This document shows, piece by piece, positions 4,078-50,579 of a stretch of 55,386 bases of DNA. The stretch covers positions 1 through 55,386 of the forward strand of contig CAMVRM010000017.1 in NCBI GenBank assembly GCA_947169885.1, in the 5' to 3' direction. Origin of the DNA: an uncultured Ruminococcus sp. (GTDB lineage Bacteria > Bacillota > Clostridia > Oscillospirales > Ruminococcaceae). The position numbers were made by a program, and so were the translations under genes. Position 1 is the first letter of the stretch; each line of letters opens with the position of its first letter. Under the pieces are notes generated by a model, which saw only the letters and a program-made list of their open reading frames with translations, did not search any database and was not told the origin of the DNA.

Positions 4078-4689
4078 ATGCAACAGCAAGAAATTTGGAA
4101 ACCGATAACAGACTACGAAGGTCTGTATGAGGTGAGCAATCTTGGCAGAGTTCGTTCTGTTGCTCGCACGATAACGCAATTAAATCGTTGGGGTGGCTCT
4201 CATACGGCGAAAATCAATGGCAAGCTATTAAAGCAAGTGTGTCAACGTCACGGCTATTTAATTGTAAGTCTTTCAAAAAGTGGGAGTGCAAGGCAGTATC
4301 TTGTTCATCGTCTTGTTGCCACCGCATTTATTGAAAGACCGACAGACGCTAACACTGTCAATCATCTTAACGAGTGTAAGACAGACAATCGAGCGAGTAA
4401 TCTTGAATGGCTCTCATTACAAGATAATATTCACTATGGAACAGGTGTTTATCGTGGTCACGCAAATCGTGACAGACAATGGCACAGAGAGCATCGAGGC
4501 GGCTTAAATCCAGCCGCAAAAGCTGTAAAACAACTGTCGCTTGACGGTGAAGTCATCAACACTTTTGACAGTATAATTGACGCAGCCAAAGCGAGCGGTG
4601 TTTGTTATTCTTCAATCTGTGCAGCCGCAAAGGGAAAAACCAAAACCGCAGGCGGTTTCAAATGGGCTTATATAATGACGAATTTCTAA
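4078..4689 (+). CDS. HNH homing endonuclease (NUMOD4-HNH-NUMOD1)
   Basis: A 203-residue protein with three modules: NUMOD4 at the N-terminus (EIWKPITDYEGLYEVSNLGRVRS), a central HNH nuclease (VNHLNECKTDNRASNLEWLS), and a NUMOD1-type DNA-binding segment near the C-terminus (AKAVKQLSLDGEVINTFDSIIDAAKASGV). Freestanding enzymes of this kind cut DNA to copy their own gene into alleles that lack it. Codon choice is more AT-rich than in neighbouring recombination genes, consistent with recent arrival. It separates the lysogeny switch from the recombination operon and is probably a selfish insertion without a structural role. Confidence 0.9.
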   Translation: MQQQEIWKPITDYEGLYEVSNLGRVRSVARTITQLNRWGGSHTAKINGKLLKQVCQRHGYLIVSLSKSGSARQYLVHRLVATAFIERPTDANTVNHLNECKTDNRASNLEWLSLQDNIHYGTGVYRGHANRDRQWHREHRGGLNPAAKAVKQLSLDGEVINTFDSIIDAAKASGVCYSSICAAAKGKTKTAGGFKWAYIMTNF

Positions 4690-4700
4690 TTTTTATATCT

Positions 4701-6692
4701 ATGAAAAAGATTATATTAAAGAAGCTCTCGCTGCTAAATTTCAAGGGTCTGCGAGACTACTCAATCGAGTTCAACGCTGACATCACGAGAGTGCTTGGTC
4801 GCAACGGCAGCGGCAAGACAACTATCTTTGACGGCTTCACTTGGTTGCTCTTTGGCAAAGACAGTGAAGACCGACAGACATTCAACATCAAGACGCTTGA
4901 CGAGAACGGCATCGCAATTCCGCAGATACCGCACGAAGTGAGCGCAGTCATCAACGTGGACGGCACCGACATCACGCTGCGTCGTGTCTATGCAGAGAAA
5001 TGGGTCAAACGTCGTGGCACAGTGAGCGCAGAGTTCACCGGTCACACTGAAGAACGCTACTACAACGACGTTCCCTGCACAATGAAAGATTATAACGAGA
5101 AAATCGCAGAGCTGTGCAGCGAGCAAGTATTCAAGTTCATCACGAACCCGACCTATTTCTCACGTCAGAAAACAGACGTGCAGCGTGCGATGCTCATTCG
5201 CATGGCCGGCGGCATCAGTGACGAAGACATCGCAGCCGGTAACGACGATTTCACTGCCCTACTCGCACAGCTCACCGGCAAGACGCTCGCAGAGTACAAG
5301 CGTGAAATCGCAGTGAAAAAGAGCAAGCTGCGTGCAGAGATTGACACGCTGCCCGACCGCATTGATGAGCGCAAGCGTGACGTTCCCGAAGTCGAAGATT
5401 GGGCGGCTCTCGAAGCTCAAATCAAGCAGCTCACGAGCGAAAAGTTTGAGATTGACGCAGAGATTGCAGACGCAGCGAAAGCGATGCGCAAAGCGAGTGA
5501 CGCTCGCATGGCTGTAATCGCAGAGCTTAACAACGTGCGCTCACAGAAGATGCGCCGTGAGTATGAAGTCAAAGAGATTGCTCTCGCAGCATGGCGCAAG
5601 CGCAAGAGCGAGCATCAAGCACTGCTCGCAAGCATCGACAGCGACAGCAGGGAGATTACTCGCTTGCAGCAACAGCAAAGCAGCAATGCCAACACGCTGC
5701 ACAGACTGCTTAACGAGCGTGAGCAACTTGTCGCAGAGTATCGTGCTATCAAAGCAGAGACGCTCAACTTCAGCGAGAGCGACTTTGTTTGCCCGACGTG
5801 TCATCGTCGCTATGAAGTGAGCGAGATTGAGAGCAGAGAGCAAGAGATAACCGCCGCATTCAACGAGCGTCGTGCAAAGCGTCTCGAAGAGAACAAGCGC
5901 AAAGGTCTCGCAGTGCGCTCGCAGATAGACACGCTCAATGAGCAGCAGCAGATGATTGAAGACAAAATCGCACAGCTGCAAGAGACTATTATCAAGAGCA
6001 AGCAGCAACCGCTCTACAACGAGAGTTTTGACGTTGAGCCGCCGACGCACGATGCGATTGCGAGCGATAGCGAGTACATCGCTTTGTGCGAGCGTGAAAC
6101 GTCGCTGCAAGAGCAGAGTGACAGCTCGCTGCAAGAGCAGAGTGACAGCTCGCTGCAAGAGCAGAGCAACACGCTTGCCGACAAGATTGCAGAGCTGCGT
6201 GTGCGTCTCTCGAAGCGTGAAATCATTGAGCGCAACAACGCTCGTATTGCAGAGCTTGAAGAGCAGTTGAAGACACAGAACGCAGAGCTTGCTCGCTTGG
6301 AGGGTATCGAGTTCACTATCTCGGAGTTCTCAAAAGCTCGCATCAACGCAGTTGAGCAGCGCATCAATGCAATGTTCAAGATAGTGCGCTTTAAGATGTT
6401 CGCAAAGCAAATCAACGGCGGCGAAGTCGAGACGTGTGAAGCCACCGTCAACGGTGTACCGTACAACAACGGTCTCAACAACGCAATGCGCATCATCGCC
6501 GGTCTCGACATCATCAACGCAATCTGCAAGTTCGAGGGTGTGACAGCACCAATCTTCATCGACAACGCAGAGAGTGTGAATGACATTCCCGAAACAGTGT
6601 CGCAGCTCATCGCTCTCGTAGTGACAGACGATGCTACACTTACTATCGACAACAAGAAACACAGCGCAGCACAGACTACGCTTTTCAACTAA
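4701..6692 (+). CDS. SbcC/Rad50-like AAA ATPase
   Basis: A 663-residue SMC-like ATPase. Walker A is GRNGSGKTT (about 33-41); the middle is long coiled coil with a CPTC pair near residue 364 that resembles half of a Rad50 zinc hook; the C-terminal Walker B-like segment is APIFIDNAESV near 617-627. Such proteins tether DNA ends and gate a nuclease during recombination. Directly followed by RecT and an MBL-fold enzyme, it probably serves phage recombination. The coiled coil contains a tandem 24-base repeat. The frame extends upstream into the HNH gene; the ATG at 4701, where SbcC-like homology begins, is chosen. Confidence 0.85.
   Translation: MKKIILKKLSLLNFKGLRDYSIEFNADITRVLGRNGSGKTTIFDGFTWLLFGKDSEDRQTFNIKTLDENGIAIPQIPHEVSAVINVDGTDITLRRVYAEKWVKRRGTVSAEFTGHTEERYYNDVPCTMKDYNEKIAELCSEQVFKFITNPTYFSRQKTDVQRAMLIRMAGGISDEDIAAGNDDFTALLAQLTGKTLAEYKREIAVKKSKLRAEIDTLPDRIDERKRDVPEVEDWAALEAQIKQLTSEKFEIDAEIADAAKAMRKASDARMAVIAELNNVRSQKMRREYEVKEIALAAWRKRKSEHQALLASIDSDSREITRLQQQQSSNANTLHRLLNEREQLVAEYRAIKAETLNFSESDFVCPTCHRRYEVSEIESREQEITAAFNERRAKRLEENKRKGLAVRSQIDTLNEQQQMIEDKIAQLQETIIKSKQQPLYNESFDVEPPTHDAIASDSEYIALCERETSLQEQSDSSLQEQSDSSLQEQSNTLADKIAELRVRLSKREIIERNNARIAELEEQLKTQNAELARLEGIEFTISEFSKARINAVEQRINAMFKIVRFKMFAKQINGGEVETCEATVNGVPYNNGLNNAMRIIAGLDIINAICKFEGVTAPIFIDNAESVNDIPETVSQLIALVVTDDATLTIDNKKHSAAQTTLFN
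6102..6173 (+). repeat. Three tandem 24-base repeats in SbcC-like gene
   Basis: Three adjacent units beginning TCGCTGCAAGAGCAGAG (6102, 6126, 6150), the third diverging at its end, encode the peptide SLQEQSDS repeated. They lengthen the coiled coil in frame and could gain or lose units by slippage without breaking the gene. Confidence 0.85.
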
Positions 6693-6717
6693 TTATAAAT
6701 CTTAAAATTTTGTGACT

Positions 6718-7707
6718 ATGCAACAGCAAAATCAACCAACAGCGCAACCGCAGACAGCTATCGCAAAGCAGTCTCGTCCGGTTGACATCTTGAAGTCTAT
6801 GCTCAAAGCAGACAGCGTGCAAGAGCAGTTCACCAATGCGCTCGGCAAGCACCGTGACGCATTCATCGCAAGCGTGATAGACCTATACACGAGCGACAAG
6901 TCATTGCAGACTTGCAAGCCGCAAGACATCATCGCACAAGCACTCAAAGCTGCGTCGATGCAGCTGCCTATCAACAAAGCACTCGGCTTCGCTTACATCG
7001 TCGTTTACAACAACAACGTGAAAGTGAAAGATGAGCATGGAGATGACAAGTGGATTAAAGTGCCGACACCGACATTCATTCCCGGTTACAAGGGTTACAT
7101 TCAGCTCGCAATGCGCACCGGTCAATATCGCTACATCAACGCAGATTTCGTCTATGAGGGCGAACTGCGCACAGTGAACCGCCTGACCGGCGAAGTCGCA
7201 CTCGACGGCGAGCGCAAGAGCGACAAGATAGTCGGCTACTTCTGCTACATCGAGCTGCTCAACGGCTTCAGCAAGACGCTCTACATGAGTGTCGATGATA
7301 TGGCGAAGTACGCAAAGCGATATGCGTCGTCGCTCGGCAAAGGTACGACTATCGAAGCTCTCATCAAGCTCGCCAACACAGAGCAGAGCAGCAAGCAGGT
7401 CGGTTGGCTCGGCAACTTCAACGACATGGCTCTGAAGACCGTCATACGTCGCTTGCTCTCGAAGTACGGCTATCTCTCTGTCGAGATGCAGGTCGCATTC
7501 GCAGATGACGTCGCAGTCAACGAGCAGCGCAACGACTTGCTCGCAGAGAACGCTAACAGCGTCGAGTTTAACGCTAACGAGGTCGAGTTTGAAGAAGTCG
7601 TTGACAAAGAGACCGGCGAAGTGATGCAGCAGAGCACAGCAGAGCAACCGGCACAGAGCGAGAGCGCAGCGAGTGAGAGTAACACAGACGATGACCCAGG
7701 CTATTAA
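6718..7707 (+). CDS. recT: RecT-family single-strand annealing protein
   Basis: A 329-residue RecT. It should bind single-stranded DNA and anneal it to a complementary strand in phage recombination. The family core is clear: NALGKHRDAFIASVIDLYTSD, QDIIAQALKAASMQLPINKALGFAYIV, and PTFIPGYKGYIQLAMRTGQY. The C-terminal 60 residues are acidic and repetitive (ANSVEFNANEVEFEEVVDKETGE), as in many phage RecT proteins. An in-frame GTG lies two codons upstream, but ATG in the common ACTATG context is chosen. No RecE or YqaJ exonuclease is next to it; the SbcC-like ATPase and MBL-fold enzyme flank it instead. Confidence 0.93.
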   Translation: MQQQNQPTAQPQTAIAKQSRPVDILKSMLKADSVQEQFTNALGKHRDAFIASVIDLYTSDKSLQTCKPQDIIAQALKAASMQLPINKALGFAYIVVYNNNVKVKDEHGDDKWIKVPTPTFIPGYKGYIQLAMRTGQYRYINADFVYEGELRTVNRLTGEVALDGERKSDKIVGYFCYIELLNGFSKTLYMSVDDMAKYAKRYASSLGKGTTIEALIKLANTEQSSKQVGWLGNFNDMALKTVIRRLLSKYGYLSVEMQVAFADDVAVNEQRNDLLAENANSVEFNANEVEFEEVVDKETGEVMQQSTAEQPAQSESAASESNTDDDPGY

Positions 7708-7718
7708 ATCGCTTACAG

Positions 7719-8450
7719 ATGAAACTCACGGTTCTTGGTTCATCATCGCACGGCAACTGCTATCTCTTTGAGAGCAGTGACAGCGTGCTTGTGCTTGAAG
7801 CCGGTGTGCCGATGCAGCAAGTGAAACGAGCTTTGCATTGGGACATCACGAAGATAGCAGCTTGCATCGTGACGCACCGCCACAAAGACCATGCCGGCTT
7901 TGTGCGAGAGTTCTTGAAATGTGGCATTCGAGTGCTTGCACTTGATGACGTGTTCGACGCTCTCGACATCAAGAACCGTGTGTTTTGCAAGACAGTAGAG
8001 CCGCAACACGGCTACATCGTGGGCGATTGGAAAGTCATCGCACTGCGTGTTGTTCACGATGTGCCGTGTGTCGGTTACATCATCGAGCATCGTGAAATGG
8101 GCAAGACGCTATTCATCACTGACACGATGATGCTTGAATATCGTATCGCCGGCATACGTCACTTTATGCTCGAATGTAACTATGCAGATGACATCTTGCA
8201 AGACAATATCGACGCAGGCATTGAGCTGCCGTCAAAGCGTGGCCGCTTGCTCGAAACGCACATGGAGCTTGATACGACAAAGCAGATTATTCGAGACAAC
8301 GACACGAGCAATCTTGATGATGTCATTCTCGTGCATCTGTCTGACAACAATAGTGACGCAGAGCGGGTCGAGCGTGAAGTGCGTGCTGTGGCCGGTGTGC
8401 CTACCTATATCGCAGACGCAGGTCGTATGTTCACACTATCTAACAACTGA
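7719..8450 (+). CDS. MBL-fold metallohydrolase
   Basis: A 243-residue metallo-beta-lactamase-fold enzyme. The metal-binding motif THRHKDHAG (residues 52-60) gives the H-x-H-x-D-H signature; further candidate ligands are His in ALRVVHDVPCVGY, Asp in LFITDTMM, and His in VILVHLSD near the C-terminus. MBL-fold enzymes of the YycJ/WalJ type include DNA exonucleases. Eleven bases after RecT and with no other exonuclease nearby, this could make the 3' overhangs RecT needs; that is inference. The fold assignment is firm, the substrate is not known. Confidence 0.85.
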   Translation: MKLTVLGSSSHGNCYLFESSDSVLVLEAGVPMQQVKRALHWDITKIAACIVTHRHKDHAGFVREFLKCGIRVLALDDVFDALDIKNRVFCKTVEPQHGYIVGDWKVIALRVVHDVPCVGYIIEHREMGKTLFITDTMMLEYRIAGIRHFMLECNYADDILQDNIDAGIELPSKRGRLLETHMELDTTKQIIRDNDTSNLDDVILVHLSDNNSDAERVEREVRAVAGVPTYIADAGRMFTLSNN

Positions 8451-8629: not shown

Positions 8630-9185
8630 GAATGCTCTCGCAGCTTACGACAACACAGATGCTAACGGACGTGAGCTGTTAGAGCATCTGTTCGGCAAAG
8701 AACTATTCGTAAAGAAAGACATCACAGAGCGTGTCAAGACGTTTGTGGACGCTTGTAAAGTGCTTGGAAGTCAACACCCGTATGTCGAGCAATATGTTGC
8801 CACCGAAGCGGCATTCCGTGGTGAAGAGAAAACAGGAGATTTTCTATCATATCTCAAACTGCGCATCATCACCGCTGCGCTCAACGAGGGTTGGGAGCCG
8901 CAGTTCACAGAAGATGAGTGTCGCTATTATCCGTGGTTTGAGTTCTTCACACAGAGCGAGCTTAACGAGATGAGTGACGATGAAAAGGGTCGTGTGGTCG
9001 GTCGTGCCTACTACAACTCGTTTGCGAACGGCGGTCTCGCCTTTGCGAGTGCGAACAACGCATCGTCGCACTCGAACGGCTACTACGGCTCTCGGCTCGC
9101 CTTCAAGACCCGTGAACTCGCAGAATACGCAGGGCGACAATTCGTCGAGCTGTATGCGGACTTCGTGTTTCCCGAAAAAGCGTAA
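8601..9185 (+). CDS. Small DGR target protein with variable repeat VR2
   Basis: A 194-residue protein of unknown function whose residues 130-167 are encoded by VR2, a copy of the DGR template altered only at template adenines. The variable part (GRVVGRAYYNSFANGG, then LAFASANNASS, then YGSRLAF) resembles the end of the 2697-residue tail protein, a C-type-lectin-like surface in other DGR targets. The N-terminal 125 residues are helical and acidic. Unlike that protein it continues 28 residues beyond the repeat (ELAEYAGRQFVELYADFVF). Its place among recombination and replication genes argues that it is not a virion tail part. An in-frame ATG at 8550 would add 17 residues. Confidence 0.85.
   Translation: MNNNLTISRENALAAYDNTDANGRELLEHLFGKELFVKKDITERVKTFVDACKVLGSQHPYVEQYVATEAAFRGEEKTGDFLSYLKLRIITAALNEGWEPQFTEDECRYYPWFEFFTQSELNEMSDDEKGRVVGRAYYNSFANGGLAFASANNASSHSNGYYGSRLAFKTRELAEYAGRQFVELYADFVFPEKA
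8988..9100 (+). other. DGR variable repeat VR2
   Basis: This 113-base stretch aligns without gaps to the template 48945-49057. Nine bases differ, all at template A: seven A-to-T, one A-to-G and one A-to-C. The flanks GGTCGTGTGGTCGGTCGTGCC (split: GGTCGTGTGG, TCGGTCGTGCC) and GGCTCTCGGCTCGC are identical and mark the limits; the second is the probable initiation site of mutagenic homing. It is about 40 kb from the template. Confidence 0.95.
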
Positions 9186-9210: not shown

Positions 9211-10095
9211 ATGCAAGGCTATATAAGCATACATCGAAAAATCAAAGAGTGGCGACACTACAAAGAGCCGGCTGTCAAAGCTGTGTTTCTCGACTTGTTG
9301 CTCGATGCTGCGCACAAAACGACTGTGCAGAGCGGTGTGCGTCTCGCAGTCGGTGAGTGCATCTCATCGACACGCACTCTCGCTGCTAATAATGGCCTTA
9401 CAGTAAACACTGTGACGAAAGTCATCAGACTGCTTGTTGAGAGTGGTGAGATAGCTCGCCGACGTGTCGGCAACACGACTATCTTCACCATTCTCAAATA
9501 TGCAGACTATCAAGACAAAAGCAGTGAGGGTGTCGCAAAAGGAAATACACCTAAATCAAGTGTCGCAAAAAGCGTAACACCACCCGTGCAGGTGTCTCAA
9601 AATGAGATACACCACAATGATGCAGGTGTCGCAAAAGAAGATACACCGGTGTCGCAAAATGAGATACACTGTGTCGCAAAAAGCGTAACACCACCACATT
9701 ATAATATAACAATAAAAAAAGATAACAATAATCTCGGCGGCGATATGCGTGTGCGTGCGCAAGAGCGTGTAGATAATTTGAGATGTCAAGTTTTAGACAG
9801 TTGGAGCATCGAGCAAGCGTGTTATCTCAATCACATCACAGAAGAGCAGTACAAACAGCTCGCAGAAGAAATCTTCAGCGATTGGCTCTTTGCGCTTGAT
9901 GAGAGCAAGCCGGAGCAGCCGCAACTTGACGAAATCAACAAAAAACACTTTCTCGCAGTATTACGCATCAAAGCACAGATACTTGTAAAATCTCAACGCA
10001 ATGGAACTGAAAACATTCAACAAAACAGAAACATTCAACGAAGAGGTGTTGACACAAAAGCTGTTAAGTCGGAAGACTACGATACAGCGTTTTAG
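9211..10095 (+). CDS. Phage replication initiator (O-like winged helix)
   Basis: A 294-residue protein. Residues 1-95 (GYISIHRKIKEWRHYKEPAV, then TVNTVTKVIRLLVESGEIARR and IFTILKYADYQ) are the N-terminal winged helix of phage replisome organisers, which binds origin DNA. A low-complexity middle (about 106-165) is encoded by the iteron repeats. The C-terminal part (LDSWSIEQACYLNHITEEQYKQLAEEIFSDW) is helical, likely for contact with the helicase loader. Followed by a DnaC-like ATPase it parallels lambda O/P. Its last 95 bases overlap the loader frame. Confidence 0.85.
   Translation: MQGYISIHRKIKEWRHYKEPAVKAVFLDLLLDAAHKTTVQSGVRLAVGECISSTRTLAANNGLTVNTVTKVIRLLVESGEIARRRVGNTTIFTILKYADYQDKSSEGVAKGNTPKSSVAKSVTPPVQVSQNEIHHNDAGVAKEDTPVSQNEIHCVAKSVTPPHYNITIKKDNNNLGGDMRVRAQERVDNLRCQVLDSWSIEQACYLNHITEEQYKQLAEEIFSDWLFALDESKPEQPQLDEINKKHFLAVLRIKAQILVKSQRNGTENIQQNRNIQRRGVDTKAVKSEDYDTAF
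9529..9735. repeat. Candidate replication origin: six iterons plus AT-rich stretch
   Basis: Six 23-base units start at 9529, 9559, 9591, 9625, 9648 and 9670. The pattern is GGTGTCGCAAAA, six less constant bases, then ACACC; the ends GGTGT/ACACC are inverted. Units 4 to 6 are contiguous, with a one-base overlap between 5 and 6. Because 23 is not a multiple of three, they are read in two frames (GVAKGNTP and VSQNEIH), so the repeat is conserved as DNA. An AT-rich stretch (9697-9732) follows. Iterons plus AT-rich DNA inside the initiator gene match lambda-type origins. Confidence 0.8.
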
Positions 10096-10684
10096 ACTGC
10101 CGATGACCGTTGTGCAGGCGCAGACTTTTCTCAAAGCGTCATACGTCGCTGAAGTCAAGTTTCGCAACCGTACATTCATCGAAGATGAACGTATCAACGC
10201 TCACATCGCACGTCTCGCAACCTTCTTGACTGACAACAACTCGAAGTTCGGTGTGATGCTCTGCGGCACATACGGCAACGGCAAAACGACTTTGCTCTAT
10301 GCTCTGCGTGCAGTTGTCAGTCTGCTGTCAGATTGTGGCTACATCGAACACGGCTCAAAATTGGTTGTCTATGACGCACGAGAGCTGTCAAAGCTCTACA
10401 AAGACCGTGACCCGGAGACTTTCAACGATGCGTGTCGTGAGCGACTGCTCGCTATCGAAGACATGGGAAAAGAGCCGACTGAAGAGCTGAACTACGGCAG
10501 CATCATCTCGCCGGTGACAGAACTGCTCGAATACCGCTACAACAATCAGAAGTTCACTGTCATCACAACCAATCTCACACCGAAAGAAATCCGTGAGAAG
10601 TACGGCAACCGCATCGCAGACCGCTTCAACGAGATGATGTGCGTGCTGAATTTCGGCGCAGCAGATACTTTCAGAACGAGATAA
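10001..10684 (+). CDS. DnaC-like helicase loader ATPase
   Basis: A 227-residue AAA+ ATPase. Walker A is GTYGNGKTT (89-97) and Walker B LLAIEDMG (149-156); sensor-like TTNLTPKEIREKYGNRIADRF follows, as in DnaC/IstB loaders. It should deliver the replicative helicase to the origin with the upstream initiator. No phage DnaB is seen, so the host helicase is the probable partner. The ATG at 10001 overlaps the initiator by 95 bases; an ATG at 10103 (MTVVQAQT), eight bases past the initiator stop, is a possible alternative giving 193 residues. Confidence 0.85.
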   Translation: MELKTFNKTETFNEEVLTQKLLSRKTTIQRFRLPMTVVQAQTFLKASYVAEVKFRNRTFIEDERINAHIARLATFLTDNNSKFGVMLCGTYGNGKTTLLYALRAVVSLLSDCGYIEHGSKLVVYDARELSKLYKDRDPETFNDACRERLLAIEDMGKEPTEELNYGSIISPVTELLEYRYNNQKFTVITTNLTPKEIREKYGNRIADRFNEMMCVLNFGAADTFRTR

Positions 10685-46700: not shown

Positions 46701-48872
46701 TTCTTGACAGAGCTTGACATTCGCAACACGACAATTACGAGCGTCAATGCACAGTATTGCCCACGATTGCAGAGCATTCTCGCAAGCGGTTCTCGCTCAC
46801 GTCTGCGCACGCTCACGCTCGCAGAGACATCGCCTATCTCAACGCTCACGTTACCGGCGACGATGACAAGCATCTCGTTCGGCAATCTGCCAAATCTCGC
46901 CTACCCGAATGGCGGTCTCACGATTGACGGCTTGTCGAACATCGCAAGTCTCACACTTTTCGGCTGCAAGAACATCAACACAGCGACATTGCTCACTAAC
47001 ATCGTCGCAGCCGGTGGTCTCGGCAATGGTAGCGAAGTATTCGTCACCGGCATCGACATGACAGCATCTGTTGAAATCTTGCAGACGCTCATGGAGAACG
47101 GTGTCAAGGGCATCGGCACAGAGCTTGACAACGCTTGTGACGGCTTGCGTGGCACATGGTTGCTCACTGAACTTGTCGAAGATAATGAGTTGAGCGCACT
47201 GCAAAACTACTACCCCGAACTGACAATTCACAATGCGCAGTTTACGGGAGTGATGTTCAACGACACTATCGCTGACCCAATGAACATGACTAATCTCGAC
47301 AACGGCACGAGCGGTGAAGACTATGAGCCAAGCGGTCACATACTGCGCATTCGTGCAGGTCTTATCCCGGTCTTTGGCAAGCTCAACACAACGACCGGCA
47401 AGTTCGAGTGTGTGCCGGTAAGCGAAGAGGACTACAAGTATCTCAAAGGTGAGAGCGAGATGTTCGACTACACAGACCAGGGCGGCTCAAAGAAAGACGT
47501 TATGATGCGTGCGCCACGTTGTTGGTACAAGGGTGTCAATGACTTCAAGACGCAAAAGAAGTACATCTTTTGGAGTTCGCAGCACGATGAGCCGCTCTCT
47601 ACTGCTCACGTCGTGCGCCGTGCAACACTCTCAACGCTGACATCGTATGCAGATACAGCAGTCAAGACGCAAGCTGTGACTATCGGTGTCTCTACGATAG
47701 ACAGCGCAGGTGTTCTCGGCAGCGAGACAACATTCTCGGCTTATCGCTACGACAATCTCGCCGGTATGAAGCAAGTGCGCTTCCCTGCTGTCAACAGCGG
47801 CGAGAATGGTGCAGTCTTCTTGAACGAGCAGGGCATCATTATCGGCATCTTCAATATGGACGTGTCAGCGAGCGATATGCAAGTGGGCGATTACGTCTTC
47901 TGTGACGTGCCGGTCGGTGCTGTCTCAATCGTCTTCACTGCGCCGACATCAAGCGCAGCAGACGAACTCATTGCGGTTGATAGCAGCGAGATTGAAGCTA
48001 TCGAACCCGATTGGGTGCTTAACGAAGAGTGGCTCTGCGGTGTTTACGAAGCGTCGATTGACGGTCAAACTAATCTGCGTTCTCTGTCGGGTGTCGCAGT
48101 CAAGGTCGGCAACGGCACGTCTCGCACTAACACGAATTGGACTTACGACGCAAACGGCAGACCAACTAACACACCGTCAACGACTATCAACTACACTTGC
48201 AAGGACTTTATGAACCTCGCAATGCGTCGTGGCGCAGGCTATCAGCTCATCGACTACGAGATGAGCAAATTTGTCGCTATCTTGTTCTACTGCTACACCG
48301 GCTCTCGTGACGCACAAGACTTGTGCGGCTTCGGGCAAGGTGCAGGCGGCAACACCGGCGGCAAAGACAGTCTCGGCAACGCTAACAGTGTGCGTGGCAA
48401 CTCTAACAACGGCAACAAGGTTCTCGGCTTTGAGAACTTCATGGGTTGCACTTACGAGTGGATGGACAACATCGCAGTCAACGTGTCATCATACAATGAC
48501 TTCTTACTCGCTCACTGCGAGCAAGGCTCGTACACAGTCAATCACAAGTGGCACATCTACAATCCCCTAACCGGGACAGAGCGTGTCGTGCAAGGTGTCA
48601 ACTTCACCGGTGCAGAGATTGCTCGTGTGCGTCATGGTCGTTTCTGTGACATCATTGCGTCGAAGTCTTATAGTGACAGCAATTATGCTACTTACTACGC
48701 AGACCAACAGACGTATGCAACAACAAGTGGTCGTGTGGTCGGTCGTGCCAACTACAACTCGTATGCGGGCGGCGGTCTCGCCTTTGCGAGTGCGTACAAC
48801 GCATCGTCGGTCTCGGGCGGCAGCTACGGCTCTCGGCTCGCCTTCAGAGGCGAAATCGAGCTGAACGAATAA
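40779..48872 (+). CDS. Giant tail protein diversified by DGR (VR1)
   Basis: A 2697-residue protein, probably the receptor-binding tail tip or fibre. Order of parts: Ala-rich coiled coil (about 40-90); repeated beta modules with GxWKTYQYxG motifs; Ig-like strands (about 590-900); a LamG/concanavalin-like module (about 915-1130); a large region with CYHVFTDYIAAVDQRSKNMMVGFY and LYDGDTILGSDNDCGL (about 1300-1740), which faintly recalls CotH-type proteins; leucine-rich-like repeats (about 1920-2090); and a C-terminal C-type-lectin-like domain. Residues 2651-2688 are VR1. The lectin fold in other DGR targets displays the variable residues for ligand binding; here the ligand is presumably a host surface structure. 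Confidence 0.9.
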   Translation: MADLKKRVSELPSSTDIDGLVVLGTTAQNESVKVPLKQVLQATEPTALESVRQTANTAAQKAQQALEDAGDADDKAQEALDAVAALATTKGQASGIASLDTEGKVPQSQLPDTPQYDDVLEFAGILDTATIRSEKSSAKSTDSNAQVFFVTQTQQFVIGVRTDVLYSALVQNDSGLLQAPAVGEAASRLTDAQVQQAIALSEFSTLYTFYNDWEDRYLFADSNLVPLSNKIFTCTSTNVIYYYKSSESALTAIGKDSSADIAAMQSDITKLQGDVTSLKSVRLFFNGNALLGRDSVIELASFAELTSGDAYTDIRKSGAVFSLLTSKGWKQYQYDGGTWTDTANWHEAGGSAIVGNCFNVTVSEPLEQGYYTLAQAINVAYRRGYTLVGIQITFSIAEGSWKTYQYIGANTTESNFKNEANWLDLAGMSAGDESVININSKCGEPTITDHYTLTSALAALQSHETTSGITYAKLGLIITYRNKVDGQFVWEVKQFVGEVIGDFYSHPELWRDIAGGGSSVETSDEPEEDGKDAFSTGGAYTHIPSDLRIDTSEEGIVKVALIGRNSDVIGDEHQFAVGTGSGDSGGTIVTIEANNTYTKAGGDVILSARISSVTKRSGQADIVNDIESVELYDRDTNQLLETYTNLQTYYNASTGYYDFNLASYFTQAASRRFRLIAYDNTDHSASRNVTVVAVDVTIRSEQTLAYSASTVLYVGGASSRSLPMYSFPNNASPQGIRCITEIYIDGAWRTLAEAIVTDTSSHSVAINPTNCLGYALTHGSYALRIHGVDVASGVVGNYLHTSVMCVDVNDTTPIIVTRWLSDAATANVKQYETISLDFAAYNPTATSMNVEIVELKNNVETVKRTAAAQRGTTYTYTQRVTDYDSENTITIELFARNSSIVSQTATFEINDTLLRISAFTDMQEVDIDFASRSNDDADKTIESNGHVLTLNGCTWRTTGFVRDSFGTAQYNTEGDTGIMALRIAENVTGTLDYAPFNVAAIETNGMAIQFRIRTKHIANDDAVLMSCISGGKGFYVTGKKVVLTFDNEQTVAHTIDAALKEDAITDVAIVIEPSTGSRSTAPYSGIGIAKIYFDGELIGACYYDSGTLTRHATKITFDGSQADLYLYDIKAWETFYAFEQSFYNYLLMLTDTDTMIAEYTFNDVFASQSAEGVVGNRPQRTALYNEKMPYFVLCKNADTSNIDSNYPEYLETLDGDKKTTATLDVYAFFPDRPYQDFKAIAAVVSNQGTTSSWRPIKNIKMKFKKATLSLLRTREECVALGYDGALYDECARNAAKHKVQILDTSVPTNIITVKVDYSESGGANNGASTNLFNDLQRELGSNYRTPAQNAYIAKNNGTPPYTLNTSIDSIPVAFFRTDKYCADATSYLQGYFHAKGNWNQDKGDAAVFGFENVDGYNDGALNYGDFYELIAARNQSLADFYAQQDTSTWEFPIDEKDASKGNFNVVVLSEFCGAEHRVFRRADNNSAWQETTGTVTCTNGVWRITGDVVNWVENYELRTYSGLDWFQGVNSVDDMLKPGADGKPIWLTHFESRYPDDDALNAAYEDGRKVPYRLYEWLKWCQFCNQHLTEDAAHNSETIEIENEDGTTSIVEKYPGGTNAPTTITIDGVEVPGTKANRLLKFKRELHKVANVYSMICYHVFTDYIAAVDQRSKNMMVGFYLDTDLQCRMYLNHLYDGDTILGSDNDCGLTIPAELDPNNDPHGYYQGHDSVLFTQLANSDYLWLVDYTSDSDTSDVTKTTTVARIAAVMRSFRLGDNLRPFSPEGIEKYWIKDRLSKWPKLVSSFDGMRKYITRSTAQSNYFYALHGLSIQRLQEYVKTRFLYRDGFYQCGDILTKAAQFRAVGTNITVTIKAAKDGYFALSADGTIKDSVRLAAGDTYTLRSYETNTGSGTMLYIYGADRISELNIRNATPKSQGWNISEAILLQKLYIGGDNYTPATNNGDELSALNLGQLPFLTELDIRNTTITSVNAQYCPRLQSILASGSRSRLRTLTLAETSPISTLTLPATMTSISFGNLPNLAYPNGGLTIDGLSNIASLTLFGCKNINTATLLTNIVAAGGLGNGSEVFVTGIDMTASVEILQTLMENGVKGIGTELDNACDGLRGTWLLTELVEDNELSALQNYYPELTIHNAQFTGVMFNDTIADPMNMTNLDNGTSGEDYEPSGHILRIRAGLIPVFGKLNTTTGKFECVPVSEEDYKYLKGESEMFDYTDQGGSKKDVMMRAPRCWYKGVNDFKTQKKYIFWSSQHDEPLSTAHVVRRATLSTLTSYADTAVKTQAVTIGVSTIDSAGVLGSETTFSAYRYDNLAGMKQVRFPAVNSGENGAVFLNEQGIIIGIFNMDVSASDMQVGDYVFCDVPVGAVSIVFTAPTSSAADELIAVDSSEIEAIEPDWVLNEEWLCGVYEASIDGQTNLRSLSGVAVKVGNGTSRTNTNWTYDANGRPTNTPSTTINYTCKDFMNLAMRRGAGYQLIDYEMSKFVAILFYCYTGSRDAQDLCGFGQGAGGNTGGKDSLGNANSVRGNSNNGNKVLGFENFMGCTYEWMDNIAVNVSSYNDFLLAHCEQGSYTVNHKWHIYNPLTGTERVVQGVNFTGAEIARVRHGRFCDIIASKSYSDSNYATYYADQQTYATTSGRVVGRANYNSYAGGGLAFASAYNASSVSGGSYGSRLAFRGEIELNE
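48729..48841 (+). other. DGR variable repeat VR1
   Basis: This 113-base stretch ends 31 bases before the stop of the giant tail gene. It aligns without gaps to the template 48945-49057 and differs at 13 positions, all template A (six to T, seven to G). Asn codons become Tyr, Gly, Val or Ser. The closing GGCTCTCGGCTCGC is identical and should be the homing initiation site. Confidence 0.96.
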
Positions 48873-48884
48873 GCGGAAAGCGTC

Positions 48885-48921
48885 AGAGCGAGAGCGGCGA
48901 TTTTTCGCCGCTGCTCGCTCT
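48885..48921. repeat. Strong hairpin between VR1 and TR
   Basis: AGAGCGAGAGCGGCGA (48885-48900) pairs with TCGCCGCTGCTCGCTCT (48905-48921): 16 base pairs with one bulged G and a TTTT loop. It begins 43 bases after VR1. Hairpins downstream of the variable repeat aid homing in the Bordetella phage DGR; here it could also stabilise or separate transcripts. No T run follows. Confidence 0.75.
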
Positions 48922-48944
48922 CTATCACGGTAGAGTGTCTCAAA

Positions 48945-49057
48945 GGTCGTGTGGTCGGTCGTGCCAACAACAACTCGAATGCGAACGGCGGTCTCGCCTA
49001 TGCGAATGCGAACAACGCATCGTCGAACTCGAACGGCAACAACGGCTCTCGGCTCGC
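48945..49057 (+). other. DGR template repeat (TR)
   Basis: The 113-base template holds 26 adenines, mostly in 11 AAC/AAT codons that match variable codons in the targets. It starts GGTCGTGTGGTCGG and ends GGCTCTCGGCTCGC, after which the sequence (AAACAG) departs from both targets (CTTCA), as expected for the changed homing signal that protects the template. It would be transcribed and copied to cDNA with random changes at A. The open frame across it is a by-product of its likeness to the targets. Confidence 0.95.
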
Positions 49058-49268
49058 AAACAGTCAAAGCATCACAAATCGTCTCTACGGCACAGCGCAC
49101 GAGATGCGCACAGCAGAGGGCGAGAGACACGAGCCGCAGTAACAGCGAAACATTCAAATGTTGACAAAACTTGAATGTTTTGAAAACTGAAAAATCACGA
49201 ACACGCAGAGAGATTGGTAGGTTAACTCTCGAACATCTCGGCTGCGAGGAACTGAAGGCATAATAACA
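49058..49268 (+). ncRNA. TR-RT spacer, probable structured DGR RNA part
   Basis: The 211 bases between template and reverse transcriptase have no supported gene. They include a perfect 10-base hairpin (AAACATTCAA 49148-49157 with TTGAATGTTT 49171-49180) and shorter stems near 49208-49258. In studied DGRs the RNA downstream of the template folds and primes cDNA synthesis, so this spacer is likely part of that RNA. Ends are not defined. Confidence 0.55.
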
Positions 49269-50579
49269 ATGAAACGCATCGGCTACGTCATAGAAGAAAT
49301 CATTGAGCAGAGCAACCTCGACAACTCTTTCGATACTGTGCTGCGTGGTAATCACCGCAAGCGATTGAGAGAGGGCAAGTGGCTGCTCGCACATCGTCGA
49401 GAGTTTCTTGACAAGCTGCGAGAGCGCATCATAGCGGCTGACTTGTCGAAGTATATGCGCTTTCACCCGAAGCTCGTGTATGAGGGCGCAAAGTGGCGCA
49501 ACATACAAGTCTTCCCGATGTCGGCTCGCATTGCTATCAATGCCGTGATGTCGGTCGTTGACCGTCATCTGAAACAACGCTTCATTCGTACTACCGGCGC
49601 ATCAATCAAAGGTCGTGGACTGCACGACTTGAAGCACTACATCGAGCGAGACATAGCTAACGACCCAATCGGCACACGCTATGTCTATAAGTTCGACATT
49701 CGCAAGTTCTACGAGAGTGTCAAGCAAGATTACATCAAGTATTGTGTGCGACGTGTGTTCAAAGACAAACGACTAATCAAGCTGCTTGATGACTTCGTGT
49801 CGCTGCTCGACAGCGGCATATCAATGGGAATGCGCTCTTCGCAAGGTCTCGGCAATCTGTTGCTCTCAACGTATCTTGACCACTACTTGAAAGACCGCTT
49901 CGCAGTGCGCTACTATTATCGCTATTGCGATGACGGTGTTATTCTCGCAGGTGACAAGCGTACTCTGTGGCGCATTCGTGACATCGTGCATGAGTGCGCA
50001 GCACGCTGCGAGTTGTATGTCAAAGATAGCGAGAGCGTATTCCCGATTGAGCAGGGCATTGACTTTCTCGGTTTTGTCATCACACCGACACACTCACGAC
50101 TGCGCAAGCGTGTCAAGAAAGCATTCGCACGCAAGCTGAAGCGAGTGAAGTCACGCAAGCGCAGAGTTGAAATCATAGGCTCGTTCTATGGACTTGCGAA
50201 ACATGGCAACTGCCGTAATTTAATGAAGACATTACTAACAAGAAAAGAAATGAACAAGTTTAGCGAACTCGGTGTAACTTACACACCGCCTGACGGAAAG
50301 AAACGATTTCTCGGTAAAACTGTGCGGCTCGGCTCAATCGTCAACAGTCGCATCGAGATACATGACTATGAGCGAGACATCAAGACGGCGCACGGCACAG
50401 ACCGATATGTCGTGCAGTTTCGCTACCCGGACACCCACGAGTACGGCAAGTTCTTCACAGCATCAGAAGAGATGAAGTCGATACTCGACCAAATAGCAGA
50501 GAAAGGCGCATTTCCTTTCGAGACAATCATCAGAAGCGAATGTTTTGACGGTAACAAATACAAATACATTTTCACATGA
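49269..50579 (+). CDS. DGR reverse transcriptase
   Basis: A 436-residue reverse transcriptase that should copy the template RNA with errors at adenine. Motifs in order: QVFPMSARIAINAV (about 80-93), FDIRKFYESV (142-151), GMRSSQGLGN (187-196), YCDD (219-222) and FLGFVIT. Absence of maturase and endonuclease domains, and the template just upstream, mark it as the DGR class. The C-terminal 110 residues are an extension (DYERDIKTAHGTDRYVVQF). No accessory Avd gene is seen nearby. Its stop overlaps the next tail gene by four bases, so it is made with the late tail genes. Confidence 0.96.
   Translation: MKRIGYVIEEIIEQSNLDNSFDTVLRGNHRKRLREGKWLLAHRREFLDKLRERIIAADLSKYMRFHPKLVYEGAKWRNIQVFPMSARIAINAVMSVVDRHLKQRFIRTTGASIKGRGLHDLKHYIERDIANDPIGTRYVYKFDIRKFYESVKQDYIKYCVRRVFKDKRLIKLLDDFVSLLDSGISMGMRSSQGLGNLLLSTYLDHYLKDRFAVRYYYRYCDDGVILAGDKRTLWRIRDIVHECAARCELYVKDSESVFPIEQGIDFLGFVITPTHSRLRKRVKKAFARKLKRVKSRKRRVEIIGSFYGLAKHGNCRNLMKTLLTRKEMNKFSELGVTYTPPDGKKRFLGKTVRLGSIVNSRIEIHDYERDIKTAHGTDRYVVQFRYPDTHEYGKFFTASEEMKSILDQIAEKGAFPFETIIRSECFDGNKYKYIFT

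Follow-up and report, generated by a model that had tools for sequence, protein, structure and literature searches.

What does a phage gain from a diversity-generating retroelement (DGR) when a second copy of its variable repeat (VR) lies 40 kb away, among recombination and replication genes? The question is raised by a contig of 55,386 nt (CAMVRM010000017.1, assembly GCA_947169885.1, filed under an uncultured Ruminococcus sp.; here called, at its full length, the window), which carries a template repeat (TR), two VRs and a reverse transcriptase (RT) gene. We read the locus as very probably a two-target DGR on a single phage or prophage contig. In this reading the RT would reverse-transcribe RNA of the TR and of the adjoining Rfam RT-3 region, making errors at the adenines, and the complementary DNA (cDNA) would overwrite two sites: VR1, in the terminal part of a large tail-region protein, and VR2, within a 211-aa protein of the recombination/replication cluster. 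The usual explanation of phage DGRs is host range, and host range was the likely benefit named in the first-pass annotation. This accounts for only half of the element, since the same template also appears to diversify the recombination/replication-cluster protein; one template would thus serve a tail-module and a DNA-recombination-module protein. The same annotation had described a complete DGR in a Bacteroidota phage and had given its coordinates correctly. The element indeed appears intact, with TR, VRs and RT all present, and its relatives were Bacteroides and Phocaeicola phages together with Bacteroidales and Prevotella genomes.

Comparison of the gap-free 113-base cores of VR1 (48729-48841) and TR (48945-49057) gave 13 mismatches, all within the 26 TR adenines of the core (hypergeometric P = 2.7e-10), exactly as first counted, and over the full 118 bases 16 of 16 differences were at adenines. 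VR2 emerged as a third copy when the window was scanned from end to end for repeats. It differed from the TR at 12 positions over 118 bases, all of them adenines, and within the 113-base core 9 of 9 mismatches were at TR adenines (P = 5.2e-7). Between VR1 and VR2 there were 11 differences in 113 bases, every one at a TR adenine, and the two repeats occupy the same reading frame. A search of the 3.1 Mb genome detected no repeat copies other than TR, VR1 and VR2. At offsets 113-115 the TR reads AAA and both VRs read CTT, a 3'-end difference also present in five related loci (L004, L005, L006, L008, L015) and different in Hankyphage (L017). We read it as a homing boundary resembling an initiation of mutagenic homing (IMH) site, a 3'-end difference of this kind marking the homing initiation site in BPP-1.

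The order on the + strand is VR1, TR, RT. The RT open reading frame (ORF) matched RVT_1 (PF00078; 3.2e-12) and phrog_1423 (1.2e-85), and its best solved relative was 8ub7_A, 'Reverse transcriptase' (9.6e-14, residues 17-318), which we take to be the BPP-1 enzyme; in that alignment GMRSSQ stands opposite GSLTSQ and YCDD opposite YMDD, bearing out the earlier assignment to the DGR class. The ORF previously called a 2697-residue tail protein is present, and the tail role is plausible given the upstream genes, which encode a tail protein (phrog_6305) and a tape measure protein (phrog_9959; gene start 34896), and given a structural resemblance, though weak, to a DGR variable protein. Receptor choice would then be set by VR1. 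The VR2 gene, judged by its gene context, would be a distal, non-structural target. RNA folds gave the stretch after VR2 lower stability than the stretch after VR1, without a comparable stem. The features are listed below.

Coordinates of the DGR and of neighbouring features in the window
Feature	Position	Strand	Remarks
SbcC-like ATPase	4602..6692	+	phrog_77; upstream of target 2
RecT-like annealing protein	6712..7707	+	phrog_148
Metal-dependent hydrolase	7719..8450	+	phrog_392
Target gene 2, 211 aa	8550..9185	+	phrog_11581 (function unknown); flanked by the metal-dependent hydrolase and DnaD-like genes
VR2	8988..9105	+	within the 211-aa ORF, ~40 kb from TR
DnaD-like helicase loader	9211..10095	+	phrog_2514
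DnaC-like helicase loader	10001..10684	+	phrog_50
Target gene 1, 2697 aa	40779..48872	+	phrog_14959 (function unknown); tail region
VR1	48729..48846	+	in the 2697-aa tail-region ORF, at its C-terminal end
Strong hairpin	48886..48920	+	immediately 3' of VR1; RNA folds
TR	48945..49062	+	118 bases, 30 adenines
Rfam RT-3 RNA (RF03068)	49077..49246	+	84.5 bits; between TR and RT
RT, 436 aa	49269..50579	+	DGR class (GMRSSQ, YCDD)
RT C-terminal extension, residues 328-433	50250..50567	+	phrog_19665 (function unknown)
Small protein after RT, 167 aa	50576..51079	+	phrog_19239; DUF4376-like, under Pfam cut-off

An adenine-only pattern could also be the relic of an old DGR that is now inactive. We consider this very improbable, because the RT frame is open with YCDD and motif 4 present, and because among close relatives the TR is identical and the VRs are all different. 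The first-pass annotation had proposed comparing VR1 across relatives; in three related contigs (L004, L005, L006; RT 99% identical) the TR was identical over 118 of 118 bases and the VR1s all differed. VR2 likewise differed among relatives, all copies being distinct, and of four close VR2 relatives three had 0 or 1 non-adenine difference from the window TR and the fourth (L010) had a short deletion. A near-identical group of six contigs (L054, put out of register by an indel, was left out) showed 15-23 differences per 110 VR bases between pairs (14-21 at TR adenines) compared to 2-36 per 790 bases outside the VR; L059 and L060 differed at 21 of 110 VR bases and at 2 of 790 outside. Homing into VR2 would appear to be ongoing, via the same machinery.

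Homologues of target 2 were sought by peptide patterns outside the VR, which gave 68 viral-contig loci and 10 bacterial-genome loci, and phrog_11581 was matched by 59 of 59 alignment members. An RT matching phrog_1423 was found in 33 of 50 records, and in 30 of 35 among those of at least 40 kb (hand count). A second set gave 10 of 25; all ten were whole bacterial genomes, in which an RT match is partly expected. RT neighbourhoods were then available for a template test of 44 homologues, window included, with no adenine filter; for two bacterial genomes with many RTs (L030, L032) the LoVEphage-like RT was taken, and in L024 and L027 the RT is on a separate contig. A template/repeat pair was present in 43 of 44 records. 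A match was scored when the TR, at its best placement in the homologue, had over 10 identities more than the highest-scoring of 30 shuffles. On this definition the TR matched the homologous gene in 42 of 43 records, and 607 of the 721 mismatches fell on adenines, which make up 24% of the TR. In L026, the record with no pair, an adenine-filtered scan placed 17 of 17 TR/VR2 mismatches at adenines.

Five of these records were excluded as non-independent, the TR having been revealed via the phrog_11581 gene itself (window, L082, L086) or via a neighbouring paralogue (L073, L083). Without them, 37 of 38 homologues matched their own template, and 544 of the 649 mismatches fell on TR adenines, again against a 24% adenine share of the TR; the sole exception, L094, is a gene truncated where its contig stops. 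The TR-revealing gene in the 38 was another, longer gene, of which 259-472 aa were seen (35 of 38 extend beyond the sequence piece). The ends of 24 revealing genes, or close kin of them, aligned to the window tail-region domain at 23-86% identity, which is consistent with all revealing genes being tail genes. Because 37 of 38 match a TR that was revealed through another gene, sequence comparison identifies the phrog_11581 family as one regularly served by DGRs, mostly together with a second target and sometimes as a tandem pair. In L073, L082, L083 and L086 a pair of neighbouring small genes of phrog_11581 type, both VR-bearing, is located directly next to the TR and RT.

The converse did not hold: a full homologue was found on 4 of 27 RT contigs of at least 35 kb (among 80 RT contigs), although these contigs may be fragments, and G467, with an RT 99% identical to that of the window, has no homologue on the contig. 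A single-protein query with P0001 against 394 genomes of the order returned only the window's own genome, and the phrog_11581 profile returned one other genome, with a weak match to part of the profile. Two observations concern the repeats of relatives. The homologue of L079 (3914-4360) shifts frame in the VR region, unlike that of its near twin L048. In G470, G473, G477, G484 and G490 a long VR-bearing ORF lies on the opposite strand, ~25 kb from a VR-like match near the RT, which could be due to inversion, circular permutation or assembly.

Among 38 related RT loci, 19 matched RT-3, four matched RT-17 and 15 matched neither at the gathering score. The matching loci are the window, L099, L102, L103, L127 and 19 others, and in all 24 the distance from the TR to the start of the motif, which follows it, is 10-74 nt. 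This position suggests that RT-3 and RT-17 are portions of DGR template RNAs, namely their 3' part. RT-3 across the 394 genomes of the order was limited to the window's own genome and two sub-cutoff matches.

VR2 might nevertheless be a bystander that takes up cDNA and varies without benefit. This is consistent with the mutational outcomes, which equal those of VR1: in the 27 of 44 records used for this comparison, outcomes at 306 AAY codons were indistinguishable between VR1 and VR2 (P = 0.72). We nonetheless regard it as highly unlikely. The VR1 and VR2 of a record share their reading frame in 27 of 27 records, 37 of the 38 independent relatives still match their own template, and in the six-contig group the phrog_11581 gene had a ratio of nonsynonymous to synonymous polymorphism (pN/pS) of 0.08 outside the VR, with a pN of 0.213 inside it. 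Within that one group, these sequences show strong purifying selection around VR2.

The identity of the diversified protein was approached through its sequence, its neighbours and a structural model. Target 2 has only the 41-column VR cassette in common with the tail domain. Neighbour clustering of 60 of 74 loci (12 near-duplicates and two loci without a called gene were dropped) gave five commonest clusters, present in 17, 16, 15, 14 and 12 of the 60 loci; from the likeness of their representatives to window genes, we read these as putative metal hydrolase, RecT, DnaD-like, SbcC-like and DnaC-like families. The LoVEphage homologue is encoded next to a DUF2400 protein; methyltransferases and RtcB are also close by. 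An N-terminal Tad2-like domain (PF11195) was above the Pfam cut-off in all seven members of one subgroup, ten proteins having been scanned; in scans of the 59 members PF11195 was detected in one (2.4e-7), well apart from the remaining matches. Tad2 proteins sequester defence signals, as described in the available part of one account (PMC12043709). AlphaFold2 (59 sequences) gave target 2 helical segments at residues 21-90 and 101-120, with block means of at least 86. Bearing on a possible C-type-lectin scaffold, a Foldseek search with this model returned a lone PDB match (E 8.6) besides five viral proteins, all uncharacterised (E <=0.001), and a sequence search against PDB gave two matches (E 0.22 and 2.1).

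Two N-terminal variants were observed among the homologues. In L057, L026, L054, L055, L059, L060 and L064 the Tad2-like (anti-Thoeris) N-terminus is fused to the DGR-diversified domain. An extension of ~110 residues is common to L028, L031, L056, L074, L078, L081 and L090, and in L078 it carries no Pfam or PHROG label.

We tentatively propose that target 2 is a hypervariable intracellular binder used for counter-defence; as a variable binder inside the cell, its likeliest role would be countering variable host defences or binding host factors. Extending this to the whole of phrog_11581 is more speculative still: the family may consist of DGR-diversified intracellular counter-defence binders, so that one template retunes both the tail (entry) and a cytoplasmic inhibitor (post-entry survival). 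If true, such a phage would have an antibody-like inhibitor arm, sometimes carried on a Tad2-like sponge.

The main rival places the VR2 protein in the virion as a minor constituent, a second adhesin or a decoration, so that both targets serve adsorption. Bacuni phages offer a precedent, with two adhesin-like targets, one of them distant, in the part of their description available (PMC8143477). The homologue of phage Versailles is annotated 'tail protein', phrog_5302 ('tail protein') was matched by 26 of 59 members, and in L073, L082, L083 and L086 the gene is at most ~1.1 kb from the RT. However, in the four proteins for which coordinates were given the phrog_5302 match extends over roughly the VR cassette and no further, and we rejected it as evidence of a tail role. 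The gene also adjoins recombination/replication genes in the window and in many relatives, and its distance from the RT, 0.7 to 54 kb with a median of 15 kb, is at least 10 kb in 22 of 29 records. Together with the lack of likeness to the tail domain beyond the cassette, this makes a virion role rather unlikely in our view.

Several results weigh against an active two-target DGR with an intracellular counter-defence binder. Five of the 35 records of at least 40 kb with a phrog_11581 gene had no RT match (e.g., G409, 139.7 kb; a further search was likewise empty), and no tail target was seen in L073, L082, L083 and L086. The whole-segment TR match was weaker in L046 (18 of 39 mismatches at adenines) and L092 (21 of 41); over a shorter core, an adenine-filtered scan gave 17 of 18 and 13 of 13. 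The target 2 protein of the window lacks the Tad2-like domain and had no match in Pfam (E 1), NCBIfam or PADLOC, and a search of the 59 members against a defence library gave nothing below E 0.009. Residues 149-180 of target 2, its VR, were modelled with a predicted local distance difference test score (pLDDT) below 50. Selection on VR1 did not differ visibly from that on VR2 in the 27 records, in which the two repeats encoded the same residue at 65 of 306 codons compared to 43.8 expected, so that they are not fully independent. Finally, present activity is itself inferred from sequence comparison.

Two further features of the region concern accessory functions. Avd is an accessory protein common in DGRs and not universal among them; no bAvd (PF22296) match was found on the window contig at E 0.001, and one sub-cutoff match occurred on contig C33. 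The C-terminal extension of the window RT matches a stand-alone phage family and is possibly an Avd replacement. A tRNA-Met (CAT) gene is located within the phage region (34053-34125).

A distal second VR has precedents. In the available text on Quimbyvirus, one VR of the DGR is structural and the other is in a distal gene considered non-structural (Benler 2021, PMC8008677), which lies near methyltransferases and a tRNA ligase and for which a role in phage-host conflict was suggested; C-type lectin domains are given for both targets (PMC8008677). Likewise, four gut prophage species described in 2025 carry a further VR that is remote from the RT and close to counter-defence genes, e.g., a DNA methyltransferase, with the target family unnamed in the part of that text available (PMC12629997). 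Neither the remote target as one recurring family, nor the Tad2-like fusion, nor the RT-3/RT-17 link was found in the open-licence literature, where no paper among the matches listed combined 'diversity-generating retroelement' with 'Tad2'. A recognizable phrog_11581 family would supply a concrete protein for the proposal that phages diversify counter-defence proteins. Remote DGR targets are probably under-counted, because the method of a large DGR survey, as set out in the available portion, is unable to detect them (PMC8144416).

The window differs from Quimbyvirus in several respects. The Quimbyvirus RT is in three frames and its second target is on the opposite strand, whereas the window RT is one ORF and VR2 is on the same strand, inside a recombination/replication cluster; the portion of the Quimbyvirus account available does not identify the target with a family common to many phages (PMC8008677). 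LoVEphage shares the Quimbyvirus-type neighbourhood, and its phrog_11581 gene matches the LoVEphage TR, so the second Quimbyvirus target is probably, by analogy, the same protein. Bacuni phages resemble the window in having two target genes, one far from the RT, but according to the available text both are adhesin-like and Avd is present (PMC8143477). Hankyphage p00 (BK010646), as far as its description is available (PMC6199706), is like the window in its large tail-region ORF with a C-terminal VR, its TR, its RT and a small downstream ORF, in that order; its RT is 56% identical to that of the window, but an adenine-filtered scan of the whole record gave a single TR/VR pair compared to the two VRs of the window. 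Bacteroides phage BT-TP2 (PQ571279; RT 48% identical) had one TR with adenine-only matches at two VRs in the same type of scan. One of these VRs is beside the RT and the other is in a phrog_11581 homologue directly after helix-turn-helix genes, which is unannotated and appears to span the record ends.

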